From Hesseltinella vesiculosa (taxonomy: Eukaryota > Mucoromycota > Mucoromycetes > Mucorales > Cunninghamellaceae): a DNA stretch of 64,000 nt. The stretch is from assembly GCA_002104935.1 (NCBI GenBank), contig MCGT01000012.1, positions 496,001-560,000 of the forward strand, written 5' to 3'. Position 1 is the stretch's first letter. Each line of letters starts with the position of its first letter. Of the stretch, positions 25,598-47,457 are shown piece after piece. Made by a program: the position numbers and the translations under genes. Below the pieces are notes generated by a model. The model had not been told where the DNA came from. It saw only the letters and a program-made list of their open reading frames with translations, and did not search any database.

Positions 25598-28101
25598 ATG
25601 GACGCAAATAGATTCATTTATATTTTTTTTTTCTTCTCATGAGAGGTCATTAGTCGTGTTCTTGCTGCTGCTCATGCATCCCGCCTTTGACGTATTTCCA
25701 CAGACCCCAGTGTCTCGCCGCCACCACGTCTCGTTTACCCTTGCACCTTACTTTGTAAGCTTTGGATAGAGACATTTCATCTTGCTTGACATTGCCATTG
25801 CTTTTGCAATGTTTGTTTACTCCAGAAGCGTCCACTCCTTATTCTGGTTCAGTTCTCGCCGATGAAAACGGTAAGCTACTTTGAAAAATATGGGCTGTAG
25901 AAATTTTATGCTTTAACTTCTATTTTTTTTTTTCCTATCTTATTCCATGTTGCTTCTCTTGCTAAAAAAAATAGCCTCGCGTCTGAATTGCAGATCTTCG
26001 TCGTCACCGCACAAAAAATGGTACGAAATCGTACAAAAATGAAGTCGATTTAATCTATGCTTTGTTTGAAGCAGGAGCAAATTGACATTAACCAAGGAGA
26101 TGGTTCTGCCCATTCGGCCATACGTCCACCCTCTCTCCTAGACTTGGATTATTGGGAGAAAATCTGTAAGTATGAAGTTGGCTGTAAGAGTGGAAACAAT
26201 TGATGCACCAACTTTATTTTTTTTTTTTTTTTCATTGAAAGCCATGGAAGAGATTCCCAAAGTAAGACCTACCTGCTGGTTGTCAGGAGGGCCCAAGTAA
26301 ACAAACCGGCAAATAGCACAGCTAACTTTACATTTCTTTGCATTTACGTTAGAAAAAACTCAAAACGCAATGGGAAAGCAGCCAAAAAAAACACCTATGC
26401 CATTCGTCCCGGCCACACAACCTCCACAGCATCGCTATCATCGCTTGTGTGTGCTCTCCACTGATGGCTTCTGAACATGTGCGCCTTTCGACCGTGTCTT
26501 GCGTCTTTCCTTCCTCCAGCCATCAAGAGGATTGGTTCCTTACACCTTGCCTTGGTATTTGCTGTTTCCAGCCTTACTGATCCAGTGAATGGATTTCCGA
26601 GCGGCAATTCCCAATACGGGCAAGTGATGCTCAGGCGGGGACGACTTGGCCCGCTTTATAGGTAAGCTCTTTGCCCTTTTCGTGCGCAATACAGTAGCCA
26701 TTGAAACTGACTTTACTTTTCTTCTGTAGCCCGTCACAGGACCACGAGTAAGCAAGACATAAAATAAAGGTTGCCCGGACGATTGTATTTATGATTTTCC
26801 TATTCATTCTAGAAGATTGACCTTTTGCGATATCGTCAGGCCCGATTGTGCCTGGCATTCGTGCTAACACTGCTTCCCCTTCTCCAGTTCCAGCTAGCGA
26901 AGCAGGCAAAAAGCGAAGCGGTGACGAAGGCGACGAAGACCGTTTCTATGGTTCGTATCATTAAGTTTAACGAAAACACCACTTTCCAGGTGACACTCAC
27001 ACTGATTATTTATCCTTTTATTATTTTTGCAGGCCGCTGGCGTCATTGATTTCAGACTGTCATTTCTTACTTCAAGCAATGAAGCATTGCGAGGTGTGGA
27101 CATTCTAGATCTGGTCAAGTATCTGTTGCCTGCTTTAAGTATTGAAACAAAAAAAAAGGTGCAAGTGATGTAACACTCGGTTTTATTTTCTTAGATGGTT
27201 GCTCTGGTATGTCTGGCCACTTGACGATGGTCGGGGCCGTCTGGCCTTGCCAATTCTTCGCCATTGACTAAATACTGCTCTCCTTGCAATGCGTTATTCT
27301 GGTCCCCGGTCATGTCCCCTTAACCCTTGGCCCATTGTGCATTCCTGCTGGGCACAAGGGCACATTCTGGCCAATCCGAAAATTGGTTGACCCAACGGGG
27401 TATGTCCTGCCCAACAATGAATGAGTCCGAGGTAAGTATAAAAAAAAAACAGATATGCAATTTTAGAACCTGTCATTGACCTTTTTCATGCTATTAGGCA
27501 AGTTTCCACGTCAAGACTCTCTTGTTCCTGCTGTCGCTGCATCAAAGCCGTAGCCCAAGCTTAAGGCTTTACGTCTTTCTCTTACAGAACCTGCCGCACA
27601 AAGACTATGGCTACTTAAAAAATGGCGTTGGGGACTCTCATGCTTCTGCTTGGTGTAGCAATCTTGACCTGGTCAACAAAACCCTTTGCTTGGAGATGGA
27701 TTGTCTGTTGACCGGAGAAGACATTAGCTCCGGCTCCAGCGTGCCTTCTCCTCGTCCTCACGGGAACTTTCAGGCAAGCTACAATCTCAGTTTTACCTTA
27801 GTGTTTTAGTTGGTTCTAATGGGCATCCTTTTTTTTTCTTTACAGTTCTTGGCAAGCGCTCTCTTGTGGTGGTAGTGATCTTCCATAAATTGCCCAAGCG
27901 CATGATCAAGAGCGCTCTGGCTGTGAACCCAGCCTTGTCTCATGACCTCCTTGTTTGTGGTGTCGATCCTGACCATGTTCTCGGTATGTCAGCTGTTTAT
28001 GCATTTTGTGAAGCTGATGGGCCCATGCTTGGCTTGTTTCTGGTATCGTGCCGACCATGTTGGTTGGCTCTTTGCTTGGTGCTCATTGTGAGACCCTGCT
28101 A
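25598..28101 (+). pseudogene. Decayed paralog of the micro-exon gene at 33455–36759
   Basis: Segment by segment this locus matches the minus-strand gene at 33.5–36.8 kb, in the same order and with many splice sites kept. A first exon reads ATGGACGCAA (25598). An exon-2-like piece ends at a GTAAGC near 25758. An SGSVLADEN exon at ~25830–25870 matches SGYVPADEN. An exon-11-like piece ends GACGACTTGGCCCGC before GTAAGC near 26662. Then follow a short CACAGGACCACGA exon, a GKKRSGDEGDEDRFY exon (~26842–26949), a GAVWPCQFFAID-stop exon (~27194), a GKFPRQDSLVPAV exon with stops (~27499), and a LGKRS…LPKRM exon (~27846–28101). The first donor is ATAG instead of GT, and in-frame stops interrupt the exon-2-, exon-15- and exon-16-like parts. 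A TATA-like ATAAAAGGG sits near 25450. Exon limits are approximate. Confidence 0.6.
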
Positions 28102-28479
28102 AGCCTCTCTGCTGCGGCTATACCCACCATACCAAAAATGGAAAAATTTCCTGTTCAATAAACCAGTTGTATGGCTTTTTTTTTACTACAAAACAAAACA
28201 TGTCATACAAAAGACAACGTCCAAGTTAGCCCGATCCTGTGATTGTTTTTGCACAAATGGTGCCAAAGCCTATCTTTTCGTCCCGGTGCCATGGGGGAAA
28301 ACCTCATCTCAACATCTGTAATCAACTCTTTGATGGCTTGATGGCATGAAAAACATGCTGCAAAAGCATGTCGAACTGATTGCTTTTTGTTTTTTTTTTG
28401 TTGCGGTTTTTTCATCATTAACAGCGCGGACGTTGAATTTGACTACGGCTCTTTTTCTTCGCTTTGGAAAAAATAAACC

Positions 28480-28735: not shown

Positions 28736-29939
28736 TTCAATTTCAGCTCTTGCAGTTGGTTGGCTGAAGAGCTAAAAGACTTATTGCAAGCGTGGGTAAG
28801 AAGAACTCCACCAAAAAAAAGTTGATGTCTGGTTCATTTATTTTAATTATGTCTGGTTCATTTATTTTAATTTCGAGTCCTTGTGTGGGGTGTATATGAT
28901 GCAAGTGAACTGTCAGAGTAAAAGAAAGGAGCCTAGAGATACCATAGCCAGTGGAGGCGAAGGAGATATATATAGTGAACCTGAAGGAGGGTAAAAGGCG
29001 ATTGATTATCTTGTTTACGAGGTAGTTTTTGCCAACTCGAGAGTGATCGCTGTTTTGCATTTGAGATGACTTTTTTTTTCATCCCGCATTTTCTGTATGG
29101 TTCATTCGTCGCTACTTGAGTTTAGGTCACCCTCGGTCATAAGTTCAAATAAGAGTTGCAAGGCCACATGTACATAGTACAGAGGAGTGTATACCACCAA
29201 ATCAAAGTTTCTTGAATCAATCTCGAGGCCCCCTTTTTTTACGAGACAATTCACTGCTGAAGACACTTACACACACACACAATCTAAAAAGGGTAGTAAT
29301 GCGGTGAGTGGTAAGAAGTAAAAGAGGAATAGAGTGAATAAAGTTTTTCGATCACCCGTAAATTAAGGCCCTCATTTGGCCAAGGTTGCATTGCCAAGTC
29401 TTCAGAGTACCGCTAGTGAGTTACCAAATCGGTAATTGCTGTCATGCAACACATACTTCAATCCAAAAAGTCCATTAGACCAGGGGAAAAAGACTTTCAA
29501 ATCAAACTTACAACCATGTCAATGTTAGCAGCTTGTTACATCACATAAAACTTGAATAGAATTTTGCTATAATAAAAATAAAAGTGAGCACCGCCACCTT
29601 GAATTGATATGTTCTCCATCTAGCTAACCTCATTTGTAATTGCAGCCAAGTAGTCACTTTTGCCAGAGAAACAGGTGTCGTTTGTAGGTAAGACAAACTT
29701 GTGCAGCGACTTGCTGAGTGTGTCATCATAAAATAGTGCGCCGAAAAAATTCCGCCGAGATCATCATGGATACTGTCCCACAGGAAATGAAAACTACACG
29801 TGGTCGCTATGAGTCGTTTTCGTTACAATTTGCCTTCATAAACACTTACATAATACCTAGTATGGCTGATTTTTGCTTGGATAAATTGAATAGGATGACT
29901 GAAAACGATCGACTGGGCAAGTCAAATAGCTCATGAGAT
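28736..29939. other. Intergenic region without recognisable gene
   Basis: AT-rich sequence with only short frames. It contains a perfect tandem duplication of a 24-bp unit at 28824–28847 and 28848–28871 and a short CA run near 29270. No RNA gene or coding pattern with splice signals was found. Confidence 0.5.
28824..28871. repeat. 24-bp perfect tandem duplication
   Basis: Two adjacent identical copies of a 24-bp unit beginning ATGTCTGGTTCATTT. Probably a replication-slippage product; no function is suggested. Confidence 0.85.
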
Positions 29940-31435
29940 GTGCTGTGATGTTGTCAAGTAGTAGACTCCGCCAAAGAAGACACCTGCCGAGAAAGTAAGA
30001 CGTGTCAGTAAAATAAGAAAATCTCTCCAACGTAGCCACCCCACCAAACTTGCTTACATGCGCGAATAGTATGCCATTCATTCCTGCCTATACCTTGTTT
30101 CGACCAGTTCAATAATGTTATCATGTAAAATGCCACCAATGCGTGTGGGAGTCACCTTCAAATTCGTTTTCCCAGAGGTGATCGCCAGTTTCACCAAAGC
30201 GTTGTGTGCTTCGCAAGAAAGTGCTGTGATTGTAATAAGTTCATAGCACCAATTTCCATCAACAAGTCCAACTTTTTTTTTTTTTTTGAAGATTTTTTTT
30301 TTTTTTTTTTTTGGAAGATTTTTTTTTTTTTTGGAAGATTTTTTTTTTTTTAAAGATTTTTTTTTAAAGAAGAATCAACCGAAAGAGGTGCCCCTACCAA
30401 GAAAATAAGACTCGTCAGATAAAGAAGATGATCTAACCAAGGTAGCCACCCAACCAAACATTCTTACCTGCGCCAAAAGTTTCCATTGATTTCTGCCTAT
30501 GCCTTGTGTCAATCAGTTCAAAAATGATGTCATGCAAAATGCCACAAAACCAAAGAAAGCGTAAAATGCCTTCGTGATCGTGTTCCCAGAGGTGATCGCC
30601 AATTCCACCAAAGTGTTGTGTGCTCCCCAAGAAAGTGTTGCAATTGTGAGAGGTTCATAGCGTTTCCACCAAAAAGTCCAAGAGTTTTGTTCCCAAAAAA
30701 AAAAAAAGAAAAAGAATCAACCCAAAGAGATGGCCCCTACCAAGAAAATAAGGCACGTCAGTTGAAGATGATGGTCTCCCAATGTAGCCACCCATCCAAG
30801 CAGGCTTACCTGCGCCAAAAGATGCCATGCGTTCCTGCCAATATCTTGTGTGTGACGACCGGTTCAATGAGGTTGCCATGCTAATACCATCCAAGAAAAA
30901 AGCAAAATGCCTTCATGATCATGTTCCCAGAGGTGGTTATCAATTCCACCAAAATGTTGTTTGATTCCGAATAAAGTGCTATGATTTCGAAAGGTTCACA
31001 GCACCAATTTCCACCACAAGCCAAGAGTGTTGTTTCCCACAAAACTTCCTTTTTCTTCATGCACCGCCATTGGTCGTCGGCGGCACTGCAACCAAAGAAA
31101 TGAAAATCAGCCCAAAAAAGGTATGAGAGGTCTCCGCCAAGAGAGGATCCCTACCAAGTAAATAAAAAACGTCAGTGTCTCGCTAAAATAGCCACCTAAC
31201 CAAGCAGGCTTACCTGCGCTAAAAGATGTCATTGATTTCTGCCTATGCCTTGTGTATTCCAACCAGGTCAATAATGCTGTCATACAATTTAGCCGCCAAA
31301 GTGTGTATGAATTGCCTTCAATATCGTGTTCCCAGAGGTGGTTTCCAATTCCACCAATGTGTTGTGCTTCCCAAGAAATTGCTATGATTGCGAGAGATTC
31401 AATTCACAGCACCAAAATCTGCCAATTAAAGAGAG
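29940..31435 (-). repeat. Four diverged tandem units (~320 bp) carrying exon-like sequence on the minus strand
   Basis: Units lie at about 29940–30280, 30360–30690, 30715–31040 and 31125–31435. Each repeats, in plus orientation, CCTACCAAGAAAATAAGA, then TAGCCACC-AACCAA, CTTACCTGCGCC, TTCTGCCTATGCCTTGTGT, TGTTCCCAGAGGTG, CACCAAAGTGTTGTG, and GTTCACAGCACC. Read on the minus strand, each unit has an exon-like piece. The best preserved (unit 1) reads VKLAITSGKTNLKV and GGILHDNIIELVETRYRQE; the others have shifted frames. Units 2–4 end in GGCGCAG before a GTAAG donor and have a TTGGTAG acceptor about 75 nt on. Units 1 and 2 are separated by T-runs interrupted by GAAGATT. This looks like a duplicated exon–intron module that has decayed. 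The parent gene is not recognised. Confidence 0.6.
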
Positions 31436-33121
31436 TTTGCTTCCCATAGTGTTCCATTGAATGTGCGTTGCATTTGGACGTGAGCAACATTGCATTGAGA
31501 AAATGACAGAGGCTTGTGACGAGCGAAGGATAAGTGTGCCTTGAAGGATTGCTGGCAGTCAATATCACCCATATAATAGGTGTCATACATGTTTAAATGA
31601 AGCTTGGTCTTCCCGGTGCATGGCAGCTTTAGGGAGTGCCAAAAAAATAAAATTTTCCCCTGACCAGCAGCCAAAATACAGCAAAGGATGCCACGGAAAA
31701 GATACTGATATGTCTTGCTATGACCATCGTCACAATAGCCATCAAATATTTCATAAATGTGGATTGCAGATGACGAGAAGATGTTTCACCAATGGCACCA
31801 GGATGTAGAGAAACCCTGGCACCGTCTGCGCAAAAAATCCACAGGATCGTGCTAGGCAAAAGTTAAAGCCCAGCAACACCGTAACTAACTCCCAGAGAGC
31901 ATTTTCCGCGAGTTGTGCTGGCCAGCCCAGAGGACGAGGTTGTTCATATACAGGATATCTTGCATGGAGGTTCCCCCCCATTACGAAAAAAAAAGACTTG
32001 AATCCTCGACCACGATAAACAGCCAATGGCCAGCGGTGCTGGTGTCTGTTGCCAGCAATTGCTGTCGAGTGAAGGTTTGCCAAAGAGGGCTGGCAGTGAC
32101 TCAAAAAGGCCAACAACTTGGTAGTTAGTCTACGGTGTTGAAGATCTGGTGTTACTAAATGTGTCAGAGAGTGTGATACTGAACGTACCTGTTACATCGT
32201 TGTTTTCATATGGCCAGTCGGCTGGTGCATCACAACATTGGTTCATCACTGCATCAGTCCAGGGCATTCGTCGCCATTGCTTTCGATCGTAACGATCATT
32301 ATTTGATTGTCATGGTGACCAAAAAGTAACTTGAAGTCAGCTATGTCTGGGTGTGCTGCCCTGAAGTGATCATCACCAGCTTGAGAGTGACCGTATTTTG
32401 GAATCTGGTCACAGGCCCATACAGAAAAAAAAAAACGAGGGGCCATCACAGGTGCTTGAGCGCAAGGCCAAGAAGAGACAGCCTTGGCCAAACATGAGCG
32501 CACCAGCCATACATATTGAACGGCCAAGACTTGGCTTGGCTTGGCTTGGCTTGGCTTGGTTTGACTTGCACCATTACGATACAACACCACCTGTGTTGAT
32601 ATAGCTGACTTGAATCCAGGGCCACCTGTCTTGGTTTACGTTGAGGGCTCAGAGTTGCGAGGTTGGAAGCCAGGGCTAGTTTCAGATGCCCGTCAGTAGG
32701 GTGCTATGACGACAGTAGTGCCTCCACTGCCCCCGGGGACCCAGGGGGGCCGTGTCTAGCTAGCAACGGACCGTTTTCGCACAATGGTGGCACAGCAACA
32801 ATTTGTGCACTTCCCTCATGATTCCAAAGCCTTTGAGGCAAAAAAAAAAAAGCCATGCCACATAGCCCAGCATATGCCAATGATTTGACTGGTGGGTCAA
32901 AAGCAAAGGCGCCGTGCCAGAGGGGGCCTGGCCAGCCACCTGGATCGATGTCTCTTGCAAAAAAAAAGTGGTCAGTGCATCATGTTCCACAACGTTTCTG
33001 ATTTTTTTGGCGCTTTTTTTTTTCCCGTCCCTGACGTACCATTCAATTCCAAAACAAAAAACAAGGTGCTTGTTGCTCAAGGGTGCAATTTTTTTCGGTG
33101 CACGTGTCCCTTTTGTTGCTT
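31436..33121. other. Intergenic/accessory region, nothing identified except a short microsatellite
   Basis: Frames up to ~120 codons exist but show no codon pattern, splice context or family motif. A pentanucleotide microsatellite, TTGGC repeated five times plus one variant, lies at 32531–32560. The segment nearest 33.1 kb becomes C/G-rich and merges into the duplicated last exon of the next gene. Confidence 0.5.
32531..32560. repeat. (TTGGC)n microsatellite
   Basis: Five perfect TTGGC units followed by TTGGT, inside otherwise non-coding DNA. Confidence 0.85.
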
Positions 33122-33454: not shown

Positions 33455-36400
33455 TCAGGTTGGGCCCCCAGGAGCACCAAACATTGGGCCAAGGTTCGCC
33501 GTGAAGTTGGGCAAAGGTTTTGCCCGACGTCCACGGCGACCACCAGCGCGACAGCGAGAGAGACCTTGAGCTGGTGCTGCTGCACCAGCAGCACCACGTA
33601 ACGATCCAACATGACCGGCACCGACGCCGACCACTGCCGCCCCCATTGACATGTTTGATGCCACAGCATTGCTGTGGCGGGGGCGGAGATACCACACCAC
33701 CCCGGGAGCAATGGCGCTAGTCATCAATCATGAATAATAAAATAAAAATTAGGGTGAGTATGGCCATTGACATTGCATTAAATTTTTCTTCTCTCAACTT
33801 ACACAAAGCGTCCCGGGACGATGTGGTAGGGGGGGAACCCCAGAAGCACCGTGCGGCCACCAGGCACGCTAACAATGGGACCAAAGGTCACCACGAAGTT
33901 GGGCATAGGCTTTGCCCAACGTCGACGGTGACCTTCAACACGGCGACCGCCATCACGGCGGCCGCAGAGACTTGTGGCAGGCGCTGCTGCACCTGCAGCG
34001 CCAAGAGCACCGGCAAAAACGTCAACAGGGGCCCCAGCAGCAAGGGGCCCGCCAGCAACAGAAGACACGAAGCGAACAGGTGTGCCGGGCACACGGCCAG
34101 CACCAACGCCAGACACAAGGCAGCCAAAGCAAGAGGCTGGGTGCACGGCCCGAGCGCGCTTGTTCATGCGCTCGGGCAATTCTTTGCGGACCGTCGCCTC
34201 ACGAGAGCGCTTGCCGAGAACTATGTTGAAAAAAAAAGGATCGCCATCAGCACCAAGTAAAATGTTAAAGTGAACCGAGAGATATACTTACCTGTGGAGC
34301 TCTCGTGAGGACGACGGGGGGAGCACCAGTCAACTTCTGCTCCGGAGAGCAGATAAAAAATGCCCCAAAAAAGGGCATTGGTGGCCAGCGCACGATTGTT
34401 GCGCCAGCCAACCACAGAGCAGCCAGTCAAAAGCTTCTCCGCCCCCTTGGCAAACGTTTGTGCCACGGTCTTGATGGTGCGGGGGCGGAAGCAGGAAGGG
34501 GGAGCCTTGCCTTTCATCTGGGGCTTTGGTGCGCCAACGACAGGAGCATGTCGACGCACCAACTTGCCTTCAAATAGGAAAAAGGTCAACGACAGGTTCT
34601 AAAATTGTATATCCGGTTATTCAACTTACCCCAGATACCATTCTTGCTGGTCTGGGCACAAGTACTGGCACCCTTTAGGCCAACAAACTTGATGGGTGGC
34701 CAGTAGGTGCCAAAGTGCCCAGACCGCACATACGCCGGGCCACGGGCCAGCAGACAAGGCCCAGGAAACAGAACCACGCCAGGAAGGTAGGGTAGAGTTG
34801 GGCCAAGGCCCAGAAATTGGTTTGGCCAGATGGCCCCTACCATTGTCGAGGGGCCAGACGCACCGGAAGAGACAGCTAAGAAAATAAAATCCGGTGTTAC
34901 GTCTATTGACAAGAACCGTCCCTATTTTTTTTTTTAGCAAAACTTACACTTTGGGCCACGTCGGCCTACAAAAATAAGGAAGGGGCAGAAAATGAGTGTG
35001 AGTGTGATTTGTAAAATGTTGCTTTCCTCAAAAGTACTGATACTTACCAGAGAAGCGGGTGTTGTCGTCCCACACCCCGCGTCGCTTATTGCCGACGCGG
35101 GCAGGAGCGGGAGAAGCAGGGGCGACAGGGCGAGAGAGCACAGCGAAGTTGCAGGCGTCTAGTTTTAAAAAGAGTGATTCTTAGCAACATCCTCAGGTAA
35201 TTTTTTTGTATTGCTTACGTTTTGGCCCGCGACGGTCTATAGAAGAAAACGAAAAAAAGTCAGTTTCAAAGGCTGCTTTCTACAGCGAAGGCAAAGAACT
35301 TACTGGCGAAGCGGGCCGAGTCGTCGCCGTCCGAGCGGCGCTTGTTGGCTGCCCGCAACTTGAGTCGTCGGACAAGCAAGTTGCGGAGCAGCGAGTCCTC
35401 GGGCAGGGAGGACGGGGCCAAAGCACGGAACCGAGCCGCCGGCTTGCTGGATGGTGGCAGCGGACGGAATGCTGCCGAAAGGGCCTGCGGCACAGGACCC
35501 AACAGGGGAGAACCCACGGGCGACAATGGTGAGGGTGGCAAGTGGGCGTAGCCAGGGCGAGTGGTTGGCGCAGGGGCAGAAGACACCGAAACAGGGACAG
35601 AAGACACAGAAGAGGTGGCATAAGGGGCATAGGTGATTTTTTTGGGGTTTTCTACTGCATTTTCATATTTTTCTATTGTAAATAAAGAAATGTTAAGCGG
35701 CTATACTGTCCATGGCCTTATTTGTGTCTCAATGACAGCATGTTAATCTTACTTTGGGTGTTTTCTTCTATGATTGCCAAGGGTAAAAAAAAATATAAAA
35801 ACACGAAAAAGCAGTTAAAGCATGCAGTTGTTTTAGCTCTTGTGTTTCAAAGCAACTTACGATTTTCATCGGCGGGAACATAACCGGAATTGGGTGCTAG
35901 AGAAAAAAAATTGATGAGACTGGCTCATTTTCGTAAGAGTGCGGCACATTAAGCTCTTACATTTTTTTTCTATGTGGAGAAGAACATCATGGTCAGGGAT
36001 CTATTAATTTTGATTCATTTTGTTTCAATTGTGCGAATGATACTTACGGGTTTTTTGATCTAGAGCAGCACAATGGAATAAAATAGAACGAAAAATAGGT
36101 AAGCAACATGTTGCTTTGGTACTTGTTTTTTTTAAAGTAACTTACTTTCTTCATCGGCGGGAACACAACCGGAATCTAGAGAGAGAGAGAAAAAAAGTAA
36201 ATCCGACTCATTCTTGCAGGAGAGTCCGTGCACGAGTTCTCACCATTTTTTTCTATGCGGAGAAGAAAATGGACTAGGTCAGCGATCACTGCATTAAATC
36301 GTTCATTTTTTTTAGTTTTTACGAAAGGCACTTACGGGTTTTTTGATCTAAAGCAGCAAAATGGAATAAAAAAAGAAAAACAAAAAATGGTTAAGCATGA

Positions 36401-36476
36401 AGTTGATTTGGTTCTTTTTTTTCAAAGCGACTTACAATTTTCTTCGGCGGGAACATAACCGGAATAAGGGGCGGCT

Positions 36477-36511
<35 letters not shown>

Positions 36512-36759
36512 TCGTGTGAGTAAACAAACATTGCGATACAATGGTAATGCCTAGCAAGCAGCCAATGGCACCTATAAAGGAATCTTACAGAAGAAGGTGG
36601 AAGGTGATGCGTAGGGTGGTGGTGGAGGCGAGGCGGGGGAAGCACGGGAAGCAGAGGCAATAGCTGAGGCAGCAGCGCGGTCGTCGTCTATTTAGGGGGG
36701 AAAAAAATAGGAAAAGGATGTTAAAGTTAGCACAAATGCATCGATTAACTTGCATCCAT
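33455..36759 (-). CDS. Unknown multi-micro-exon gene, 18 exons, 656 aa predicted
   Basis: Not recognised. Exons (high to low coordinate): 36759–36750, 36687–36589, 36474–36436, 36347–36336, 36252–36244, 36175–36146, 36059–36048, 35969–35961, 35896–35861, 35767–35753, 35654–35304, 35236–35219, 35158–35048, 34965–34948, 34875–34630, 34567–34292, 34220–33803, 33716–33455. They total 1971 nt with one open frame and stop TGA at 33455. Exons 2–16 are all divisible by three and every intron up to the last is phase 1. Almost all donors are GTAAG. The product starts MDANDDRAAASAIASAS, is Ala/Pro/Ser-rich, and repeats short modules: SGYVPADEN, QKT, RRGPK, and NKRR…DD…RF (twice). The last two exons share AGAAAPA…GGRR and KP(L/M)PNF. 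No signal peptide or membrane segment is obvious, and basic patches may direct it to the nucleus. The exon model was made by eye. Confidence 0.6.
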
Positions 36760-36987
36760 CTAATCTATTAGACTTAGACAGATGGCAACCTTTCTTACAG
36801 GCAGGCATCATCACGAATCAGGAAAGAAGAAAGAAGAAGAAGAAAAAAGAAAACACTCTTTCTCGACCCTTTTACCTGGTTTCCTTCGGCTCTAAGCCAA
36901 TCATATTGCAGTATTCGTTGGCATTCTGCCCTTTTTCTTTACTTTTGAAACTCTTAGATCGAAGCAATGCGCTAGAAGTTCATTGAA

Positions 36988-38315: not shown

Positions 38316-38334
38316 TAGATCGAATATTTCATTT

Positions 38335-38720
38335 TGAAAAAAAAAAAAAAAAGGCGAGCACTACACAGCACTTTTGAATGATTCAATAGCTCTGAAATTT
38401 TATATAGGTGCGCAAATGCATGAATGATGGAGGTACTGAAAAAAATAGGGTGAGTGGTGAAGGCTGCCCAGCCAATGTTTAATCCGTTTCTTTTCGACAC
38501 CTCCGATTCTCCAGCTAAAAAAAAAAGAAAAATCGGCAATTTCACCAGGGGAACCTCAGGCGATCTGATCAAAAATCACAGCGCAAAATTGTTGGAAGTC
38601 AGTTCAGTCCAAAATTGCATACACGTGCGAAACGATAAGAAATGACCTTGACTAAAATTACCATTATCACGGATGATGGTGCGAAGTACTGGAAGGCTGG
38701 CAGACTAAATCTTGCTGGAA
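38335..38720 (+). repeat. Dispersed repeat, copy E (long)
   Basis: Starts at an A-run, then ACAGCACTTTTGAATGATTC, GAGTGGTGAAGGCTGCCC, a translated VKAAQP…FDTSDSPAKKKRKIGNF part with no stop, AGGCGATCTGATCAAAAATC, and GCATACACGTGCGAAACG. The tail GACTAAAATTACC and the later CTGGAAGGCTGGCA match the end of copy B, so B and E define a unit of about 390 bp. Confidence 0.65.
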
Positions 38721-39006: not shown

Positions 39007-41271
39007 TCAATCATAGACTTGAAGCCCGGAAAGGCTTGGCACGGAAAGGCTCTTGGTCATCAATTCGAGAGGAGTTACCACAGGCTTTTGCTTTACCTCG
39101 GACTCGACTTGTTCACCATCCATAAAGGTTTTGAGCATGTTTTGAGAGAATCCAGAAACCATGGCCATGCCTGGAGTATTGTGGGATCCTTGCGCAGTAA
39201 TAGGCATTTCAGTGGCTGCCAGATTCCACCACACAATCTCGGGAGGTTCATATCCAGCATGGTGATACTCTGCAACAATCGATTGCCACAGGGTGTCAAA
39301 TGGTGCGGCCGTTTCATAACAGCTATTGATATGTTCGCATGCATCAAATTGCATGTCAGTAAACACAAACAGGCGCTTGACCATATCTTCTTGCTTGATC
39401 TTGAGCTTGATGGCCATGGGCAGTAGCAGGTCCACAAAAACTTTGTAGAGATCGGTCGAGCTACCCCATGGTGCCTTGAGAGCTTGCTTTGCTTGGTCAA
39501 CAATGGATTGCTTGGGGTCAATCTTGACAACGTTGGGATTGGAGTCGAACGTGATCATCATTCCGGTAAAGGGGGGAGCAGCAAGAGCCATCAAAGTCAA
39601 GGACAGACCAATAGCAGCATGCATGGCAGTAGCACCGCCTAGAAGCTTCCCACTGCAGTTCATTGACCCAGACACATCGCAAACAGCCAGTGATCCGCGG
39701 AGTGCATGCCCAGGGCTACAAGCATCTTGGAGACCACGGATATAAGAGGACCATTGGCCGTCGATCAGGAGCCGTTCATAGTCAGGTGTCTTGGCATTAA
39801 TTAACAGCGCTCGCTTGACAAAGTCATGGGGGCCTAGCACACCGCCAGCAACCTTGGCTTTACCTTTCTGGACCGCTTGCAAGAACTCGAGGTACTCATC
39901 CTTGGCATGCTTGACAAAGAGGTTGCGGCAGTTCTGCATGCAGACGGCTGGCACGTGGGAGAAGTCGATATCTTTCCAGTTGTTTTCGGACATTTTGCGT
40001 TCAGTGATTTCAAGGGCTTTACGCAATGGAACAAGTACTTGGCGGCGATACAGGTCTCTGGCACCATTGAGACGATAGGCACGTTGGTCTTGCGCAAGCA
40101 AAGGGTCCTTGATGAACATCAGTTCAGCAATGGAAGTGGCCATGAGGGAATACTTGTCATGCGCCGAGGCCAAGGAGGGCGCCCACTTGGCAGCAAAGCT
40201 GAGGGTGTTGGCTAGTGCATACTTATCAGTGTCGGTTGAGATGGACGAGTCAGGGTGGGCTTCATTGAAAGAATGCAAGCAAGCGAGATCTTTTTGGAGC
40301 TGATCAGCAAACAGGCGAGCGACAGTGAAGTGAAGGGCACGGTATACTACATCGGTTTCGAGTAGACGCGAGCACCACGTTTGGCGTGAGAGGCGCAGGT
40401 CATATCGGTCACAGGCAGCTTTGTCCTTGGCAGCGTATCTTTTGTCTGCATCTTGCTTGGCTTGCTGTGCTTTGATGGTGGCGGCGACTTCCTTGTCCAT
40501 TTTCTTGAGTGCACGAGTAGCTGCACGGCTGTTTTTTCGGCGATGCTTGCGATTGGCTAAGCTGAGGGGGTTTGGCTTGTTGCGCGGGTGTGTCAGTGCA
40601 ATTGAATCGGCAGGACAAGTGATGTCACCAAGAGCATAGATTGACACTATGTTGAGCAGGTCTTTCCAATAGCCATGGGATCGGTAAAACAGCGGCTTAG
40701 CCTTTTTTACTGGATTGTTGGTAGTACGAGGAGTGTCGCAGTCGTCCATATCGTCGTCGTCGTCCTGGAGTAAATCCCAGCCGGCGGCTTCCAAATCGTC
40801 TTGCTCAGTCACAGGGCGGCTGGCGACAGTGCCTTTGACGATATACTCCATGTTTTTCAATGCAGTGCGTGGGTGGTGCTTAAGTAGCCAGAAGAAGCAT
40901 TGGTAAAAAGTAGTCTTGTCCTTTTTACCATCGTGGATAGAGCGGCAGTGAAAAATGATGGCAAGCGTGGTCAAGGAGTTTTCTTGATAGGCGTTTTCCA
41001 GGCGAGAATGCAAGTTGGTGGCATTCGGCAGAGATACAAACAGGTCAAGACAGGCATTGTTGGTGGTGGAGGTGGCAATGGCACCATTGGTGGTGATGGT
41101 GAGCTGTTCAACAGATTGCAAAGCGTCCATAAACGACTGACCGACCTCTATCGGTTTTGGTTTCAAGTCCTTTGGTGGTCCAAGAGCTTTTTTTACTTCG
41201 CTCCACAGGGTGTTTTCATTATGCAGCGAATTGAAAAAAGGGAGGCTAGATGGGAATGTGTTGAATGACAT
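39007..41271 (-). CDS. DUF2828 (TROVE-like) + von Willebrand factor A protein, paralog 1
   Basis: Single exon, 754 aa. The N-terminal and middle parts show DUF2828 features: TLAIIFHCRSIHDGKKDKT, FYRSHGYWKDLLNIVSIYAL, FTVARLFADQL, AAKWAPSLASAHDKYSLMAT and AYRLNGARDLYRRQVLVPLR. The C-terminal vWA-like domain has a complete metal-site set: DVSGS (~residue 527), Thr in SSTDLYKVF (~604) and Asp in FVFTDMQFD (~637). DUF2828 proteins occur in plants, fungi and giant viruses; a relation to Ro60-type TROVE/vWA RNA-binding proteins has been proposed, and function is unknown. The start at 41271 matches the MSFNTFPS start of paralog 2; a longer reading would need TTG. An ATGAGTCAT site lies about 150 bp upstream. 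Confidence 0.85.
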   Translation of the reverse strand: MSFNTFPSSLPFFNSLHNENTLWSEVKKALGPPKDLKPKPIEVGQSFMDALQSVEQLTITTNGAIATSTTNNACLDLFVSLPNATNLHSRLENAYQENSLTTLAIIFHCRSIHDGKKDKTTFYQCFFWLLKHHPRTALKNMEYIVKGTVASRPVTEQDDLEAAGWDLLQDDDDDMDDCDTPRTTNNPVKKAKPLFYRSHGYWKDLLNIVSIYALGDITCPADSIALTHPRNKPNPLSLANRKHRRKNSRAATRALKKMDKEVAATIKAQQAKQDADKRYAAKDKAACDRYDLRLSRQTWCSRLLETDVVYRALHFTVARLFADQLQKDLACLHSFNEAHPDSSISTDTDKYALANTLSFAAKWAPSLASAHDKYSLMATSIAELMFIKDPLLAQDQRAYRLNGARDLYRRQVLVPLRKALEITERKMSENNWKDIDFSHVPAVCMQNCRNLFVKHAKDEYLEFLQAVQKGKAKVAGGVLGPHDFVKRALLINAKTPDYERLLIDGQWSSYIRGLQDACSPGHALRGSLAVCDVSGSMNCSGKLLGGATAMHAAIGLSLTLMALAAPPFTGMMITFDSNPNVVKIDPKQSIVDQAKQALKAPWGSSTDLYKVFVDLLLPMAIKLKIKQEDMVKRLFVFTDMQFDACEHINSCYETAAPFDTLWQSIVAEYHHAGYEPPEIVWWNLAATEMPITAQGSHNTPGMAMVSGFSQNMLKTFMDGEQVESEVKQKPVVTPLELMTKSLSVPSLSGLQVYD

Positions 41272-41422
41272 GAGCTTCAATGGACTTCAATAAGGTCAAA
41301 GCAGGTTGGAAAAAAAAATAAAAAAGAACGTGTGTGAAAAAAAAGTCAGCTTTCAGCTTTTTCTGCGGCAGACAAACGTTTGTGGCGCCCGCCACGTTGC
41401 GTGCTTGCTGTCAAAGGCTGTC

Positions 41423-41431
41423 ATGAGTCAT
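41423..41431. promoter_or_regulatory. Palindromic ATGAGTCAT (Gcn4/AP-1-type bZIP site) upstream of DUF2828 paralog 1
   Basis: Perfect 9-bp site 152 bp upstream of the start at 41271. The same site is found 149 bp upstream of paralog 2. Binding by a Gcn4/AP-1-like factor is inferred from the consensus alone. Confidence 0.5.
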
Positions 41432-41664
41432 TTTCTTTGCTATTACGACTAATACACCCTTCAGTACGGTGGTACAAGCATCGTGTGATCCCAATGGAGG
41501 TAGCTTTTAAATTCGAAAACTAAGCCCTGTCTGCATGACGCGCTTCAGTCTTTCACGTTGAAGTCACGTAACTAGCCATTAAATTAATAGTAAAAAATAA
41601 AAAAAAAAGAAATGCTTGACAAAGTTTATTCACAGGGACAAAAAAAAAAAAAAAAAAAAAAAAA

Positions 41665-43920
41665 CTAATCATATACAGCTAGACCCTTGAAGCTAGGCTT
41701 GGACAAATCTTTCTTCATGAATTCAAGGGGTGTGAGGGGTGCCTTGGCCATAGGCGATTGCACGTCCTTGCCTTCCATAAAGGTCTTGAGCATGTTTTGT
41801 GAGAAGCCAGCAACCATTGCCATGCCGGGGGTATCGTGGGAGCCTTGAGCAGTGATGGGCATGGCAACAGCAGCCAAATTCCACCACACGATCTCAGGAG
41901 GCTCATAGCCGGCGTCGTGGTACTTTGTTACGATCGTTTCCCACAGGGTATCAAAGGAGGATGCGGATGGGTCGGCAGTAGCGTCAAATTGCATATCGGT
42001 GAACACAAACAGGCGCTTGACCATATCTTCTTGCTTGATCTTGAACTTGATGGCCATGGGCAGTAGCAGGTCCACAAAAACCTTGTAGAGATTAGTCGAG
42101 CCACCCCATGGTGCCTTGAGAGCTTGCTTCACTTGGTCAACAATGGATTGCTTGGGGTCAATCTTGACAACGCTGGGATTGGAGTCGAACGTGATCATCA
42201 TTCCGGTAAAGGGGGGAGCAGCAAGAGCCAATAAAGTCAAGGACAAGCCAATAGCAGCATGCATAGGGGTAGCGCCGTTGGGCATCGCACCGCCCCATTC
42301 CATCGAGCCAGACACGTCACACACGGCAAGCGATCCACGAAGGGAATGATCAGGGCCACAGGCGTCTTGGAGAGCACGGATGTAAGAGGACCACTGGCCA
42401 TCGAGCAGGATGCGTTCTTCGTCGGGAGAGTCGGTGTCAATTTCGGATGCCCGCATTGCAAAGTCTTGGGGGCCAAGCACACCACCAGCAACCTTGGATT
42501 TTCCATTGACGACATCCCGCAAAAACTGAGAGTACTCATCCTTGGCATGTTTGGAAAACAGACGACGGTTGGATTGCATACACAGTGAAGGCACGTGTGA
42601 GAAGTCGATAGCCTTCCAGTCGTTTTGAGACATACGGCACTCGGGTAGATCCAAAGCCTTGCGCAGAGGGGACAGGATTTGGCGGCGATATAGTTCTCTG
42701 GCACCATTGAGACGATAGGCACGTTGGTCTTGCGCAAGCTGAGGATCCTTGATAAACAGCAGTTCAGCAATGGAAGTGGCCATGAGGGAATACTTGTCAT
42801 GCGCCGAGGCCAAGGAGGGCGCCCACTTGGCAGCAAAGCTGAGGGCGTTGGTGAGTGCATACTTGTCAGCGTCGGCTGAGGTGGACGAGTCAGGGCGGGC
42901 TTCATTGAACGACTTCAAAATGGCGGCATCTTCGGCAAGCTTTTCGGCAAACAGGCGAGCGACCGTGAAGTGAAGGGCGCGATACACCACGTCGGTATTG
43001 AGCAAATGGCTGACGCGTTGCTGGCGTTCATGGCGGAGGTCGTGACGATCACGGGTCGCCTTTTCCTTGGTAGCGCGGGCCAGATCGGCCACTTCCTTGG
43101 CTGCCTTGGCCTTGACATTGGCGGAGACTTTAATGTGCTTCTTCTTTAATTCGGCTGCTTGCTTGCGGCTGATTTGATTACGGAGTCGACGGGCAGCACG
43201 GACTTCTTCATCACGTTGATCACGAGGGTGCTCCAGGGCAATGGAGGCAATAGGGTTGGGTGCATCTCCCAAGGCATAGATCGACACCAAGTTGAGCAAG
43301 TCCTTCCAATAGCCGTGGGATCGGTAGAACAAAGGCTTGGACTTCTTCTTCTTGGTATCACCAAAATCAGACCCAGCCCAGCTGCTATCCTCGTCAAGCA
43401 TGTCCCAGCCATCGGCGACCAGCTGGTCTTGCTCGGATAAGGCGCGGTTTGCCACAGTCCCTTTGACAAGGAACTCCAGGTTCTTCACAGCGGTACGTGG
43501 GTGGCGCTTAAGGAGCCAGAAAAAGCATCGATAAAACGCATTTTTGTCCTTTTTGCCGTCATGGATAGAGCGGCAGTGGAAGATGATTGTGAGAGTGGCC
43601 AGTGGATGGCGTTCATAGGCTTTTTTGAGGTGTTTCTGCAAGTCGACAACGTTAGGTAGCGACGAGTACAGATCGACACAAGCGTTGCTGGTGGTCGAGT
43701 TTGCTGTGGCTCCGTTGGTTGTGATGGTGAGCTGCTGAATTTTTTGGAGCGCCCGAGCAAACGCCAGAGTATCATCGGTTGTAGATTGGGCTTTAGGTTG
43801 CTTCTTGGGCTTTGGCTTTGCTGCTGCACCAAGTGACTCATCTACCTGCTGCCACAAAAGTTCCTGGTTGTGAAGCGATTCGAAATATGGAAGATCGGAT
43901 GGAAAAGTGTTGAATGACAT
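41665..43920 (-). CDS. DUF2828 (TROVE-like) + von Willebrand factor A protein, paralog 2
   Basis: Single exon, 751 aa, starting MSFNTFPSDLPYFESLHNQ. It has the same domain order as paralog 1 (RSIHDGKKDK, FYRSHGYWKDLLNLVSIYAL, AAKWAPSLASAHDKYSLMAT) and an intact vWA metal site: DVSGS, Thr in GSTNLYKVF and Asp in FTDMQFD. A Lys/Ala/Glu-rich charged helix occupies roughly residues 245–310. DNA identity to paralog 1 is patchy, with one block of 86 identical bases (42760–42845 against 40120–40205), so duplication was recent or conversion has acted. The stop lies next to an A-tract at 41641–41664. TATA-like and ATGAGTCAT elements lie upstream. Confidence 0.85.
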   Translation of the reverse strand: MSFNTFPSDLPYFESLHNQELLWQQVDESLGAAAKPKPKKQPKAQSTTDDTLAFARALQKIQQLTITTNGATANSTTSNACVDLYSSLPNVVDLQKHLKKAYERHPLATLTIIFHCRSIHDGKKDKNAFYRCFFWLLKRHPRTAVKNLEFLVKGTVANRALSEQDQLVADGWDMLDEDSSWAGSDFGDTKKKKSKPLFYRSHGYWKDLLNLVSIYALGDAPNPIASIALEHPRDQRDEEVRAARRLRNQISRKQAAELKKKHIKVSANVKAKAAKEVADLARATKEKATRDRHDLRHERQQRVSHLLNTDVVYRALHFTVARLFAEKLAEDAAILKSFNEARPDSSTSADADKYALTNALSFAAKWAPSLASAHDKYSLMATSIAELLFIKDPQLAQDQRAYRLNGARELYRRQILSPLRKALDLPECRMSQNDWKAIDFSHVPSLCMQSNRRLFSKHAKDEYSQFLRDVVNGKSKVAGGVLGPQDFAMRASEIDTDSPDEERILLDGQWSSYIRALQDACGPDHSLRGSLAVCDVSGSMEWGGAMPNGATPMHAAIGLSLTLLALAAPPFTGMMITFDSNPSVVKIDPKQSIVDQVKQALKAPWGGSTNLYKVFVDLLLPMAIKFKIKQEDMVKRLFVFTDMQFDATADPSASSFDTLWETIVTKYHDAGYEPPEIVWWNLAAVAMPITAQGSHDTPGMAMVAGFSQNMLKTFMEGKDVQSPMAKAPLTPLEFMKKDLSKPSFKGLAVYD

Positions 43921-44004
43921 CTAATCTGCAAAGCGATTGGTGTGAGAGAACAAGAAAAGAAAAAACTGAAAAAGGCGTGTGAATGAAGAAAGTTCGCCGC
44001 GTCC

Positions 44005-44012
44005 TATTTATA
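44005..44012 (-). promoter_or_regulatory. TATA box candidate for DUF2828 paralog 2
   Basis: On the minus strand the sequence is TATAAATA, about 85–90 bp upstream of the start at 43920, in a normal position for a TATA element of a gene with a short leader. Confidence 0.45.
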
Positions 44013-44068
44013 GTCTGAGCCTGCCGCAGGCTTCATTCCAGCATTTGCCACCTGCCGCAATGTCAGCC

Positions 44069-44077
44069 ATGAGTCAT
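44069..44077. promoter_or_regulatory. Palindromic ATGAGTCAT upstream of DUF2828 paralog 2
   Basis: Perfect 9-bp Gcn4/AP-1-type site, 149 bp upstream of the start and 57 bp upstream of the TATA candidate. The surrounding GTCA…CATGAGTCATTTTC context is shared with the site at 41423–41431. Confidence 0.5.
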
Positions 44078-44484
44078 TTTCAAAATACAGAATTATAGAC
44101 AACTGCTTTGTGCAACGTCAGTGAGGCTCGGCTTGCTTGGATTCAATCTTTACTCATCGTTACTCAATGTTTTAACTCAAGCATTGACAAGGTTGTGCTG
44201 ACTACTTTAAAAAAATTGGATAACGGAACCAGACGTTGGCTTTCTTCTATAAAGAGGTTAGGTCTTTGGCGTACGTCTCCAAGCTAGGACTGCGCGCTAC
44301 GACGTTGGTGAGCTTGTGTGCTTAGGCAAAAAAAAAAAACATAATGCTCTTGGAGAAGCTGGCACTAAGCCAACCGATAGCAAATGGCTCATCCTACTTG
44401 CACATACCCTTCACAAGCTAGGATTTCCTTAATTGGAATTCTCAGTCGGATATAGAATTGACGCTGGCGGTTTTTTTTTCAAAA

Positions 44485-44795
44485 CAGAAACAAAAAGAAA
44501 AATGCTGTGGAGCGCTTTTAAGCTATTCTCTCAGCACTGTATTTTGCATGGATGTACATTGTTATGGAAGATACTGTAGCAAAAGAAACCAAATTGATGG
44601 ATGATGGCCACTCACACTTTTGAGGAATATCGTTTAGAAAGCCCGACTCCCCAGCTAAAAGATGTCAAAAACCGGGTCTTTTCCCCAGGGGTCACCCAGA
44701 CGGTGTGTCGAAAATAATCAGCGTAGAAGCATCCCAGATCGATTCGCTTCAAATTTTGCAAGAGAATACAAGGTGATGGGATATACCCATGGTTA
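44485..44795 (+). repeat. Dispersed repeat, copy F
   Basis: Landmarks in the same order as the other copies: AAAAATGCTGTGGAGCGCTTTT, GTATTTTGCATGGATG, GACTCCCCAGCTAAAAGATG, CCCAGGGGTCACCCAGACGG and CTTCAAATTTTGCAAGAG. The coding-like part is broken. It lies between DUF2828 paralogs 2 and 3, which accounts for the longer spacer there (1067 bp against 393 bp). Confidence 0.55.
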
Positions 44796-44987
44796 AAAGC
44801 ATTAGCCAGTTAGACATCATGGCAAGGAATGGGAGAGGCTGAAAGACTTTGCTGCTCTGCCATTTGGCACGAGGAGAACAAAGAGTAAACCTGCTGCTAT
44901 CATTGACTACCAGGTGTTTTTTTTTAATGATAATTAGATATCATAGCATATGTATTAGCAGATGAGTTGAAAAATGAAAAAAAGAAT

Positions 44988-47303
44988 CTAATCGAGAATT
45001 TGTAGGCCAGAGAAGCTTGGTTTCGCAAGGTCATCTTGCATGAGTTGGAGAGGCGTGATGACGGGCCGTTCCTTGGCTTGGCGGGACCGAATGGCGTCGC
45101 CTTGCATGAATGTCTTGAGCATGCTTTGCGAGTAACCGGCAACCATGGCCATACCAGGGGTGTCATGAGAGCCTTGGGCAGCAAGAGGTATTTGGCGGTC
45201 GCAGAGGTTCCACCAGACAATCTCGGGAGGCTCGTAGCCAGCTTCGTGGTACTTGATGACAATGGATTCCCACAGCGTTTCAAATTTGCTGGGTTTGTTC
45301 CCTTCATCATTTTCCTCGGTGCTGCTCGTTTCCTCGGTGGGCATGTCGTTGAACTGCATGCAAGTGAATACAAACAGCCGCTTGACCATGTCTTCTTGCT
45401 TGATCTTGAATCGAATGGCCATAGGCAGCAAGATATCCAGGAACACCTTATGGAAATTGATGCTGTAACCCGAGGGAGCTTTGCTGATCTGGTGGGCCTG
45501 TTCAACAATGGACGCAGAGGTGTTGATTTCCAATAGCGCAGGCTCATCCCCAAATGTCATCATCATATCAGCAAATGGAGGCGAAGACAAAGCCAACACT
45601 GTCAAAGACAAGCCAATGGCAGCATCCAAAGGTCGCACACCAGGTACAGAACCATAGTTCATTGAGTTGGATATATCGCAGATAGCAAGCGATCCTTGAA
45701 GGGTTTGGCCACCAGTGGCTTCCGTAAGATCACGAAGATAGGACGCCCATTGCCCGTTGAGGAGCTGGAGTTGCTCCCTGGGAGTTTTGTCGTCGACTTG
45801 AAGTGCACGCTGGACAAGCTCATGAGGGCCGAGAGAGGCGCCAGCGACCGAACGCTCGCCTTTTTCCACAGCACGCATGTACCTAGCAAATTGGACCTTG
45901 GCATGGCGGGCAAAAAGATCGCGATTGTCTTGCATGCACTTGGCGGAAACGTGCGAGAAATCGATCTTTTTCCATTCGTTTTTGGACATTCGGGTTTCGG
46001 TCAGGTCCATGGCACGGCGCAGAGGACCAAGTACTTGGCGGCGGTAGAGATCGCGCGCTCCATTGAGGCGATAGGCGCGGCGATCCTGGGCTAGCACAGG
46101 ATCCTTGAGGAAAAGCAGTTCAGCAATGGAGGTGGCCATCAGCGAGAATTTGTCATGGGCAGAGGCCAGTGAAGGTGCCCATTTGGCAGCAAGACTGAGT
46201 CGGTCACCGAGTGCATATTTGGTGGAAGCTTCGGTCACGACAAATGAACGCAACACATCCAAGTCCTGTTCTAGCTGGGTGGCAAACAGGCGGGCCACGG
46301 TGAAATGCAGGGCACGGTACAATGGGTCGTGCTTCAAAAGATGGGTGACCTGCTGTTGGCGGTCGTGTCGGACATCTTGACGGGTACGGGCGGCTGCTTC
46401 CTTTGCAAACTGGTTCTTGTGGTCTTCTTCACGTAGGTGGCGGGCGAGCAGTTTTTCTGCCTTTTTGGGATGCATCTCCTTGCGCTCTTTGGCAGCTTCA
46501 CGGTAGAGAGCGACTCGGGATTGACGTGCAGAACGGACATGACTGACGACAGGCTGACGAGGATGGCTCAGGGCAGTCGAGTTTGCAGGATCTTCTGTAT
46601 CGCCGAGCACGTAAATCGACACCAAGTTCAGCAGGTCCTTCCAGCAGCCGTGAGACTTGTAAAACAATGGCTTGGGATTGACAGGCTTTTCGATGCTTTG
46701 CGGGTGCCTGTCATCGGTATCCATGTGGTCGACCTTGTCAACATCCGTGTCCATAGGCTCACCAGTAGCGGCTGCCTGTTGCTGACTGTCGGTAGCGGGG
46801 TCATCTGACTTCAAATGATCCTGGTCCGTGACAGGGCGGCTGGGGATGGCACCCTTGACGACGAATTGCAGGTTTTCCAGAGCAGTCTTTGGATGGTTGT
46901 TGAGCAGCCAATAGAAACACTTGTAGAACACGTTCTTTTCTTTTTTACCGTCGTGAATAGAGCGGCAATGGATGATGATGGCGACGGTCAGCATGGCATC
47001 GTGTTCAAAGGCCTGCTCGAGCTTGTTGTGCAGGTCGTCAAAGCTGGGAAGGGACGAGAACAGGTCCAGACAGGGGTTGTCAGTGGTGGTCAAGGCTTGA
47101 GCGTTTCCGTTTTGAACACGCGAGAACTGCTGGACCTGCTTGAGGGCTAACATAAATGGGTGTGATTTTGGGGCTCTGCGCAGGTTGGGTGCCTTGTTTG
47201 CTAACGTTTTGGACGAGAGGGCATCCACCTCTTTGGCCAATGCATCTTGATTATGCAGCGATTCATAAAAAGGGAGATACGATGGGAACGTTTCAAAAGA
47301 CAT
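44988..47303 (-). CDS. DUF2828 (TROVE-like) + degenerate von Willebrand A domain protein, paralog 3
   Basis: Single exon, 771 aa, starting MSFETFPSYLPFYESLHNQ. Conserved blocks include RSIHDGKKEKN, FYKSHGCWKDLLNLVSIYVL, FTVARLFATQLEQDLDV and AAKWAPSLASAHDKFSLMAT. The vWA domain keeps DISNS for DxSxS, but the other metal ligands are changed: the Thr of GSTNLYKVF is Ile (GYSINFHKVF), and the Asp of FTDMQFD is Cys (FTCMQFN). It is the most diverged of the three. Residues ~170–210 carry an extra acidic linker (MDTDVDKVDHMDTDD). The spacer to the TBC gene upstream is only about 154 bp, so its promoter is very compact, and no ATGAGTCAT is seen there. Confidence 0.83.
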   Translation of the reverse strand: MSFETFPSYLPFYESLHNQDALAKEVDALSSKTLANKAPNLRRAPKSHPFMLALKQVQQFSRVQNGNAQALTTTDNPCLDLFSSLPSFDDLHNKLEQAFEHDAMLTVAIIIHCRSIHDGKKEKNVFYKCFYWLLNNHPKTALENLQFVVKGAIPSRPVTDQDHLKSDDPATDSQQQAAATGEPMDTDVDKVDHMDTDDRHPQSIEKPVNPKPLFYKSHGCWKDLLNLVSIYVLGDTEDPANSTALSHPRQPVVSHVRSARQSRVALYREAAKERKEMHPKKAEKLLARHLREEDHKNQFAKEAAARTRQDVRHDRQQQVTHLLKHDPLYRALHFTVARLFATQLEQDLDVLRSFVVTEASTKYALGDRLSLAAKWAPSLASAHDKFSLMATSIAELLFLKDPVLAQDRRAYRLNGARDLYRRQVLGPLRRAMDLTETRMSKNEWKKIDFSHVSAKCMQDNRDLFARHAKVQFARYMRAVEKGERSVAGASLGPHELVQRALQVDDKTPREQLQLLNGQWASYLRDLTEATGGQTLQGSLAICDISNSMNYGSVPGVRPLDAAIGLSLTVLALSSPPFADMMMTFGDEPALLEINTSASIVEQAHQISKAPSGYSINFHKVFLDILLPMAIRFKIKQEDMVKRLFVFTCMQFNDMPTEETSSTEENDEGNKPSKFETLWESIVIKYHEAGYEPPEIVWWNLCDRQIPLAAQGSHDTPGMAMVAGYSQSMLKTFMQGDAIRSRQAKERPVITPLQLMQDDLAKPSFSGLQILD

Positions 47304-47457
47304 GATGTTGGGATGGGAGCGAGAAAAATAAAAAGAAAGAAAAAAATGGGCCTTTTGAAGAGCGCGCCAAACTGTAACTGTTTGACTTACATTGCCGAAA
47401 CTGTGCCATGACAGGATTTGAGAGGAGAAACAAAAAAAAGTTTATTCATCTGGGATA

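Follow-up and report, generated by a model that had tools for sequence, protein, structure and literature searches.

A probable orphan gene family of Hesseltinella vesiculosa built from phase-1, frame-neutral exon cassettes

Frame-safe micro-exon designs have mostly been described from two sources, parasitic flatworms and aphids, the latter using a different phase. Here we ask what such a design is doing in the genome of Hesseltinella vesiculosa, a soil fungus of the Mucorales (Cunninghamellaceae), where an initial annotation had proposed an undescribed gene composed almost wholly of frame-neutral exons. The window that we analyzed is a stretch of 64,000 nucleotides (C4:496001-560000 of the 27.05-Mb assembly, contig C4 being MCGT01000012.1), and positions given without a contig refer to it. 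We found that the gene, here called gene A, is real but not single, as it is one of a family whose members differ in cassette number (1, 3 or 4). Gene A is probably a member of an orphan family of this species that is built from phase-1, frame-neutral exon cassettes and comprises 11 whole-gene loci.

Gene A lies on the minus strand (36811-33455), where we reconstructed its exon chain with GT..AG at every boundary and an open frame. In each of the 15 consecutive internal exons (2-16), the length is a multiple of three and the boundaries are phase 1; the exon chain, frame and splice boundaries thus confirm the architecture first noticed here. The chain itself stood, but the right edge placed at 36759 did not, since the start is 52 nt beyond. 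Exon 1 (36799-36811) is 13 nt long, ATGATGCCTGCCT, and ends in phase 1; a second ATG at 36808 gives a 10-nt version, which is used by the deposited models of two close copies, B and C, and with which the exons sum to the 1971 nt originally reported. Every internal exon length proposed for the gene was recovered with GT..AG: exon 2 (36589-36687, 99 nt; 108 nt in copy C via an in-frame 9-nt indel), exon 3 (36436-36474, 39 nt; the first exon of what we call the 36-type, SGYVPAEEN), exon 4 (36336-36347, a 12-nt micro-exon, ATCAAAAAACCC), exon 5 (36244-36252, a 9-nt micro-exon, AAAAAAATG, which the models deposited for B and C leave out), exon 6 (36146-36175, 30 nt; the second 36-type exon, SGCVPADEE), exon 7 (36048-36059, a 12-nt micro-exon), exon 8 (35961-35969, a 9-nt micro-exon), exon 9 (35861-35896, 36 nt; the third 36-type exon, SGYVPADEN), exon 10 (35753-35767, 15 nt), exon 11 (35654-35304, 351 nt), exon 12 (35219-35236, 18 nt, RRGPK), exon 13 (35048-35158, 111 nt), exon 14 (34948-34965, 18 nt, a second copy of RRGPK), exon 15 (34630-34875, 246 nt) and exon 16 (34292-34567, 276 nt). 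For exon 11 the AG chosen at first is usable, but the deposited paralogue models take an AG 18 nt upstream, giving 369 nt (35304-35672), likewise a multiple of three. The 3′ end of this exon carries the motif KRR..DD..RFA and is repeated at the 3′ end of exon 13, KRRGVWDDNTRFSG. Exons 15 and 16 hold the first and second halves of a conserved C-terminal region; they are followed by the weakly constrained exon 17 (33803-34220, 418 nt) and by the terminal exon 18 (33455-33716, stop included), a partial duplicate of exon 17 with which it has duplicated stretches in common. Introns up to exon 17 are in phase 1; the last one, 17/18, is assigned phase 2 by the models deposited for B and C. Apart from the two 18-nt exons, all exons no longer than 39 nt encode the N-terminal part, and most of the coding sequence lies in larger exons.

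Searching this genome at the DNA and protein levels yielded 11 loci spanning the whole gene, on 7 contigs, and at least three remnants. The close copies of gene A are B (C4:482k, plus strand) and C (C4:374k, minus strand); a further pair lies on C1 (1464k and 1512k), and a second subfamily was found on C19, C24, C34, C49 and C67, with the locus L050 on C24 being more distant. Decayed or divergent pieces of the family occur at C1:1534k, C1:36k and 27.2 kb of the window. Two of the 11 whole-gene loci look damaged, L055 having no start and L011 departing from the family frame near the C-terminus. Searching the 27 Mb for the 9-nt exon together with its splice sites gave 11 matches, one per family locus, and the reversed pattern gave 0. 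Across six members, of which the most distant is 35% identical to A, the C-terminal region retains 47 invariant columns, and paralogues are 35-44% identical across it.

Gene models deposited for this species tell much the same story. Four Hesseltinella proteins (DM01DRAFT_1373731, 1373689, 1369647 and 1341645), all hypothetical and without Pfam domains, are homologous in sequence and match in exon order. The deposited models of copy B (P0001), copy C (P0002) and the family locus L010 (P0003) mapped onto the exon chains without mismatch, and phase-1 introns make up 15/16, 15/16 and 17/18 of their introns, respectively, and 14/16 of those in the L011 model (P0004); the short L009 model (P0005) has phase 1 in only 3 of 6 introns. 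Some micro-exons are omitted in frame by these models: B and C lack the 9-nt exon 5, L010 lacks a 12+9 pair and L011 lacks several. A Viterbi gene finder without any phase rule, trained on C and L010, which are both among the ten loci counted, placed 143 of 153 introns in phase 1 (A 14/16, B 15/16, C 16/17, L010 19/20, L011 17/20, L049 13/13, L052 11/12, L053 12/13, L054 13/13 and L050 13/13). In A and B it strayed from the deposited path over exons 14-16. L055 and L051, with no usable start, were left out of the 153, and one L050 run that set out from a spurious ATG was excluded.

We then compared the exons and introns of A, B and C. Their exons differ by two indels, 9 nt and 1 nt long (the latter in exon 17 of copy B), and their introns by 7 (A-B), 12 (A-C) and 7 (B-C) indels, of which 4 of 26 are multiples of three, the pairs not being independent. 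Overall dN/dS was 0.42-0.43, and differences between A and C fell 22, 27 and 50 times on the three codon positions. The contrast in indels and the dN/dS of about 0.42 support a coding role. In the second subfamily, the two domain exons gave a dN/dS of 0.42-0.87 over six pairs. Nucleotide divergence was higher in exons than in introns (2.6% vs 1.0% for A-B, 5.8% vs 4.0% for A-C and 5.1% vs 3.9% for B-C), an excess that comes from exons 11-17 and means that part of the coding region evolves fast or under weak constraint; exon 17 alone has a dN/dS of 0.61-0.91. At greater distance, when A is compared with L010, L049 or L050, the micro-exons keep their lengths (unchanged for those of 12, 9 and 18 nt; 36 or 39 nt for the 36-type) and the introns are gapped. 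The 36-type exon has 27-34 identical bases of 36-39 between clades, vs 37-40 of 48-50 in the following intron. It is length and not base identity that is conserved in this exon between clades, the exon being no better conserved than the next intron.

The short exons are organized in cassettes. A genome search for the core of the 36-type exon, with one mismatch allowed, found 23 exact matches in the 11 loci and 0 for the control; it would overlook copies that carry two or more mismatches. There were 4, 4, 3, 3 and 3 cores in the C1 and C4 genes and 1 in each of the six others, with one extra core, at one mismatch, in the remnant at C1:1533.6k. In A and in L010 the cassettes of a gene can be aligned with each other, introns included, and therefore arose by tandem DNA duplication. 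Thus a cassette of 36-12-9 nt has been multiplied in tandem and is present 1, 3 or 4 times, with the frame kept. Duplication has also affected a second unit, in which the KRR..RF exon end is joined by the 18-nt RRGxK exon. With phase-1 boundaries, both unequal crossing-over within the gene and skipping of exons would give in-frame proteins, and the N-terminal tail, SGxVPA(D/E)-QKT-QKN, would therefore vary in length among paralogues and perhaps among transcripts. That the cassettes set the tail length of the product is a guess that we hold with low confidence.

The same facts may have a plainer explanation. Surviving duplicates may simply be the phase-1 ones, the symmetry being a neutral relic and the exons constitutive, with no alternative splicing and no adaptive diversity; we give this account a real, though less than even, chance. 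The cassettes were indeed duplicated together with their introns, their number is invariable within groups (3, 3, 3; 4, 4; 1 in six), and the micro-exons missing from deposited models could be failures of gene prediction. It fits less well that larger, non-duplicated exons are symmetric too, even in L050, which shares 35% identity with A over the conserved region, or that all 18 specified bases of the 36-type core are identical in the 23 copies, synonymous sites included, which suggests splicing constraint or homogenisation.

The C-terminal exons showed a different kind of variation. Perfect hairpins (stem of at least 8) exceeded those in synonymous-codon shuffles in 8 of 9 members at 3/100 or fewer: the number of shuffles, of 100, that reached the hairpin count was 0 in A, B, C, L049, L054 and L050, 1 in L053, 3 in L010 and 6 in L052. 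Among five control ORFs, one likewise scored high (2/100), and the others ranged from 27 to 100 of 100. Across 15 paralogue pairs, we found two exactly inverted hairpins, with reversed-only and complement-only controls both at 0. The first, at 33980-34002 in exon 17 (arms 8 nt, spacer 7 nt, 5 changed bases), separates A and B from C; the second, in a 282-nt exon of the second subfamily (arms 10 nt, spacer 4 nt, 4 changed bases), separates L054 from L049, L053 and L055. A third kind of inversion match was a CAG-type repeat. Ten exact spacer inversions between perfect inverted-repeat arms, attributed to template switching, have been described in coding genes of S. cerevisiae (PMC8604942). The inversions seen here resemble those described there in being exact, between perfect arms and within coding sequence; they differ in being found between paralogues of one hairpin-rich family. 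Together, the cassettes and the hairpins could form an independently evolved fungal micro-exon system, in which skipped or recombined phase-1 cassettes would yield tail-length variants of a basic, non-secreted protein and C-terminal hairpins would flip by template switching, so that both ends diversify in frame. We put this forward tentatively and regard it as possible but doubtful.

To return to the family of cassette-built genes, its loci share more than the gene. A conserved non-coding segment lies downstream of gene A (32430-32970, minus strand) and has 11 matches in the genome including its own, each downstream of a family gene and at the same 11 loci as the 9-nt exon; the ten others are 74-97% identical to that of gene A. 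We had considered this segment as extra coding exons and dropped it by eye, given the many out-of-frame indels in its alignment. Because the loci share this long non-coding segment, they were duplicated as large blocks, and since the neighboring non-coding DNA is also 74-97% alike, function is not provable from similarity alone. This raises an alternative, which we consider unlikely, namely that the gene is cargo or an open frame of a mobile element, its copies having travelled in large units and its exon pattern being incidental. The spread of the eleven loci over 7 contigs with a common downstream segment would fit such an element, as would the similarity, over several kb, of second-subfamily loci on different contigs. 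Order around the gene has also changed: in copy B (L063 1159-2402), a segment matching window positions 38697-37441 lies downstream of the gene block and not upstream as in A, and parts of it lie upstream in L010 and L011, in permuted order. Near the upstream edge there is a dispersed repeat (38327-38600) with at least 41 matches (40 scored of 902 first-look candidates). The edges themselves argue otherwise, as the point where upstream homology stops varies from one locus pair to the next, and B and C cease to be collinear with A on the downstream side near 28278 and 28890, respectively, which speaks against fixed termini. Nor did we find a transposon match at gene A by inspection of large ORFs between 22.1 and 39.0 kb, where the only ORF of at least 170 aa is antisense to gene A; a spliced or shorter transposase could escape this inspection. 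A dN/dS below 1 and the retention of the micro-exons likewise weigh against mere cargo. Two other features were seen in the surroundings of gene A: a tandem array of units of about 340 nt (29900-31400), with relatives downstream of other family genes, and three tandem genes on the minus strand with DUF2828 and DUF7788 domains (39010-47441), which adjoin the gene.

Next, we characterized the predicted product. The spliced gene A protein matched 0 Pfam families at E ≤ 1, bearing out the initial annotation, in which no domain had been recognized. Searching six C-terminal pieces against Pfam gave one match (0.25, in one member), NCBIfam gave NF005083 (0.0077, in 2 of 6 members) and plsX (0.077, in one), and the best match among PDB sequences was at 0.28; we took all of these as chance matches of low-complexity sequence. 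The window was also scanned with Rfam (gathering threshold) and for tRNAs, with no hits. A protein homology search, which had been suggested for the predicted gene, returned matches only within Hesseltinella vesiculosa: no homologue outside the species was found, with 4 proteins, all from Hesseltinella, among 2069 candidates at E ≤ 0.001 in a search that needs shared 5-residue words. A further protein search of the same 5-residue-word sensitivity gave one Hesseltinella protein and none outside the species among the matches listed (E ≤ 10, at most 8000 candidates compared). A query from the second subfamily had no protein at E ≤ 1 among the matches listed, so its loci seem unannotated in that length range, unless their proteins fell beyond the 8000 candidates. 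The deposited models P0001-P0004 encode proteins of 61-71 kDa with a pI of 9.9-11.3. At low confidence, we guess that the product is non-secreted, largely disordered, very basic (pI 10-11) and nuclear or nucleic-acid-binding via its conserved C-terminal region, the nuclear role being suggested by composition only.

These properties bear on the likeness to schistosome micro-exon genes (MEGs) and aphid bicycle genes that had been pointed out for gene A. MEG products are described as having a signal peptide in all cases (PMC4350168), and the genes as having long flanking exons, the 5′ one mostly encoding the signal peptide, around a central run of micro-exons, with products that tend to be small; among MEGs 26-32, 26 of 33 micro-exons (79%) are reported to be symmetric (PMC4671649). 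In bicycle genes, the internal exons are described as nearly all phase 2 (PMC9168663). What holds of the comparison is the modular, frame-safe architecture shared with MEGs. The signal peptide described for MEGs (PMC4350168) was absent from our hydropathy scan, and the phase described for bicycle genes (PMC9168663) is a different one. Specifically, the Hesseltinella family shares with MEGs the many short exons divisible by three, the multigene families and the lineage-restricted proteins, but its first coding exon has only 10-13 nt, its full deposited models are basic proteins of 61-71 kDa, its internal exons of all sizes up to exon 16 are symmetric and in phase 1, and in gene A very short exons are not the majority of the coding region. 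With bicycle genes, compared here by description and not by sequence, it has in common many small internal exons of uniform phase and a divergent, lineage-restricted family; those genes differ in being phase 2 and in being described as putative salivary effectors. Homology to platyhelminth MEGs was not found either, the protein searches giving only Hesseltinella among the matches listed (shared 5-residue words needed). The family thus resembles MEGs and bicycle genes in frame safety, yet is a member of neither.

It is very unlikely that the family is secreted and effector-like, working as MEG or bicycle proteins do. Its micro-exon architecture, its multigene nature, its variable proteins and the lack of homologues found outside the species would all suit that role, but the size and charge of P0001-P0004 and the use of phase 1, vs phase 2 in bicycle genes, do not, and no N-terminal hydrophobic stretch like that of a signal peptide was seen in six proteins (P0001-P0005 and the L049 prediction; 19-residue hydropathy ≤ 0.57 within the first 40 residues). 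Among the open-access papers found by word search, no fungal family of such design appeared, and none of those naming this species has the family in its title or displayed abstract. If the exons are borne out by transcripts, symmetric micro-exon families would no longer be a specialty of animal parasites or insect effectors: a fungus would have evolved this design as well, for a protein that has no visible secretion signal, and host pressure would not be its obvious driver. The eleven paralogues, with 1, 3 and 4 cassettes, also offer a graded set in which to study how 9-nt exons are recognized by a fungal spliceosome, and whether selection favors phase symmetry because it permits isoforms or merely because it makes duplication safe.

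Finally, we asked whether the exon pattern exceeds chance. For lengths that are random modulo 3, the probability that all 15 exons are divisible by three is (1/3)^15, or about (1/3)^10 when duplicated exons are counted once. Strict splice-site scoring for candidate exons of 6-45 nt found 8 in gene A, 7 of them divisible by three and the non-conforming one, of 40 nt, spurious; the score was trained on family members, which favors gene A, and it missed exons 5, 8 and 10. That the micro-exons are artefacts of the gene model, chance GT..AG pairs within non-coding repeats, is hardly credible: some family members do appear degenerate, exons 11-17 diverge more than introns across A, B and C, and micro-exons are not better conserved per base than introns between clades, but splice sites and exon lengths are maintained across diverged paralogues, exon indels are few, and deposited models employ these micro-exons. 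In the rest of the window, on both strands, the same strict scores gave 9 candidate exons of 6-45 nt, 3 of them divisible by three, and all 3 of these lie at 26.1-26.7 kb, inside a decayed family copy. This decayed member occupies 25750-27400 on the plus strand, opposite to gene A, and still shows traces of exon candidates of 18, 24 or 42 nt.
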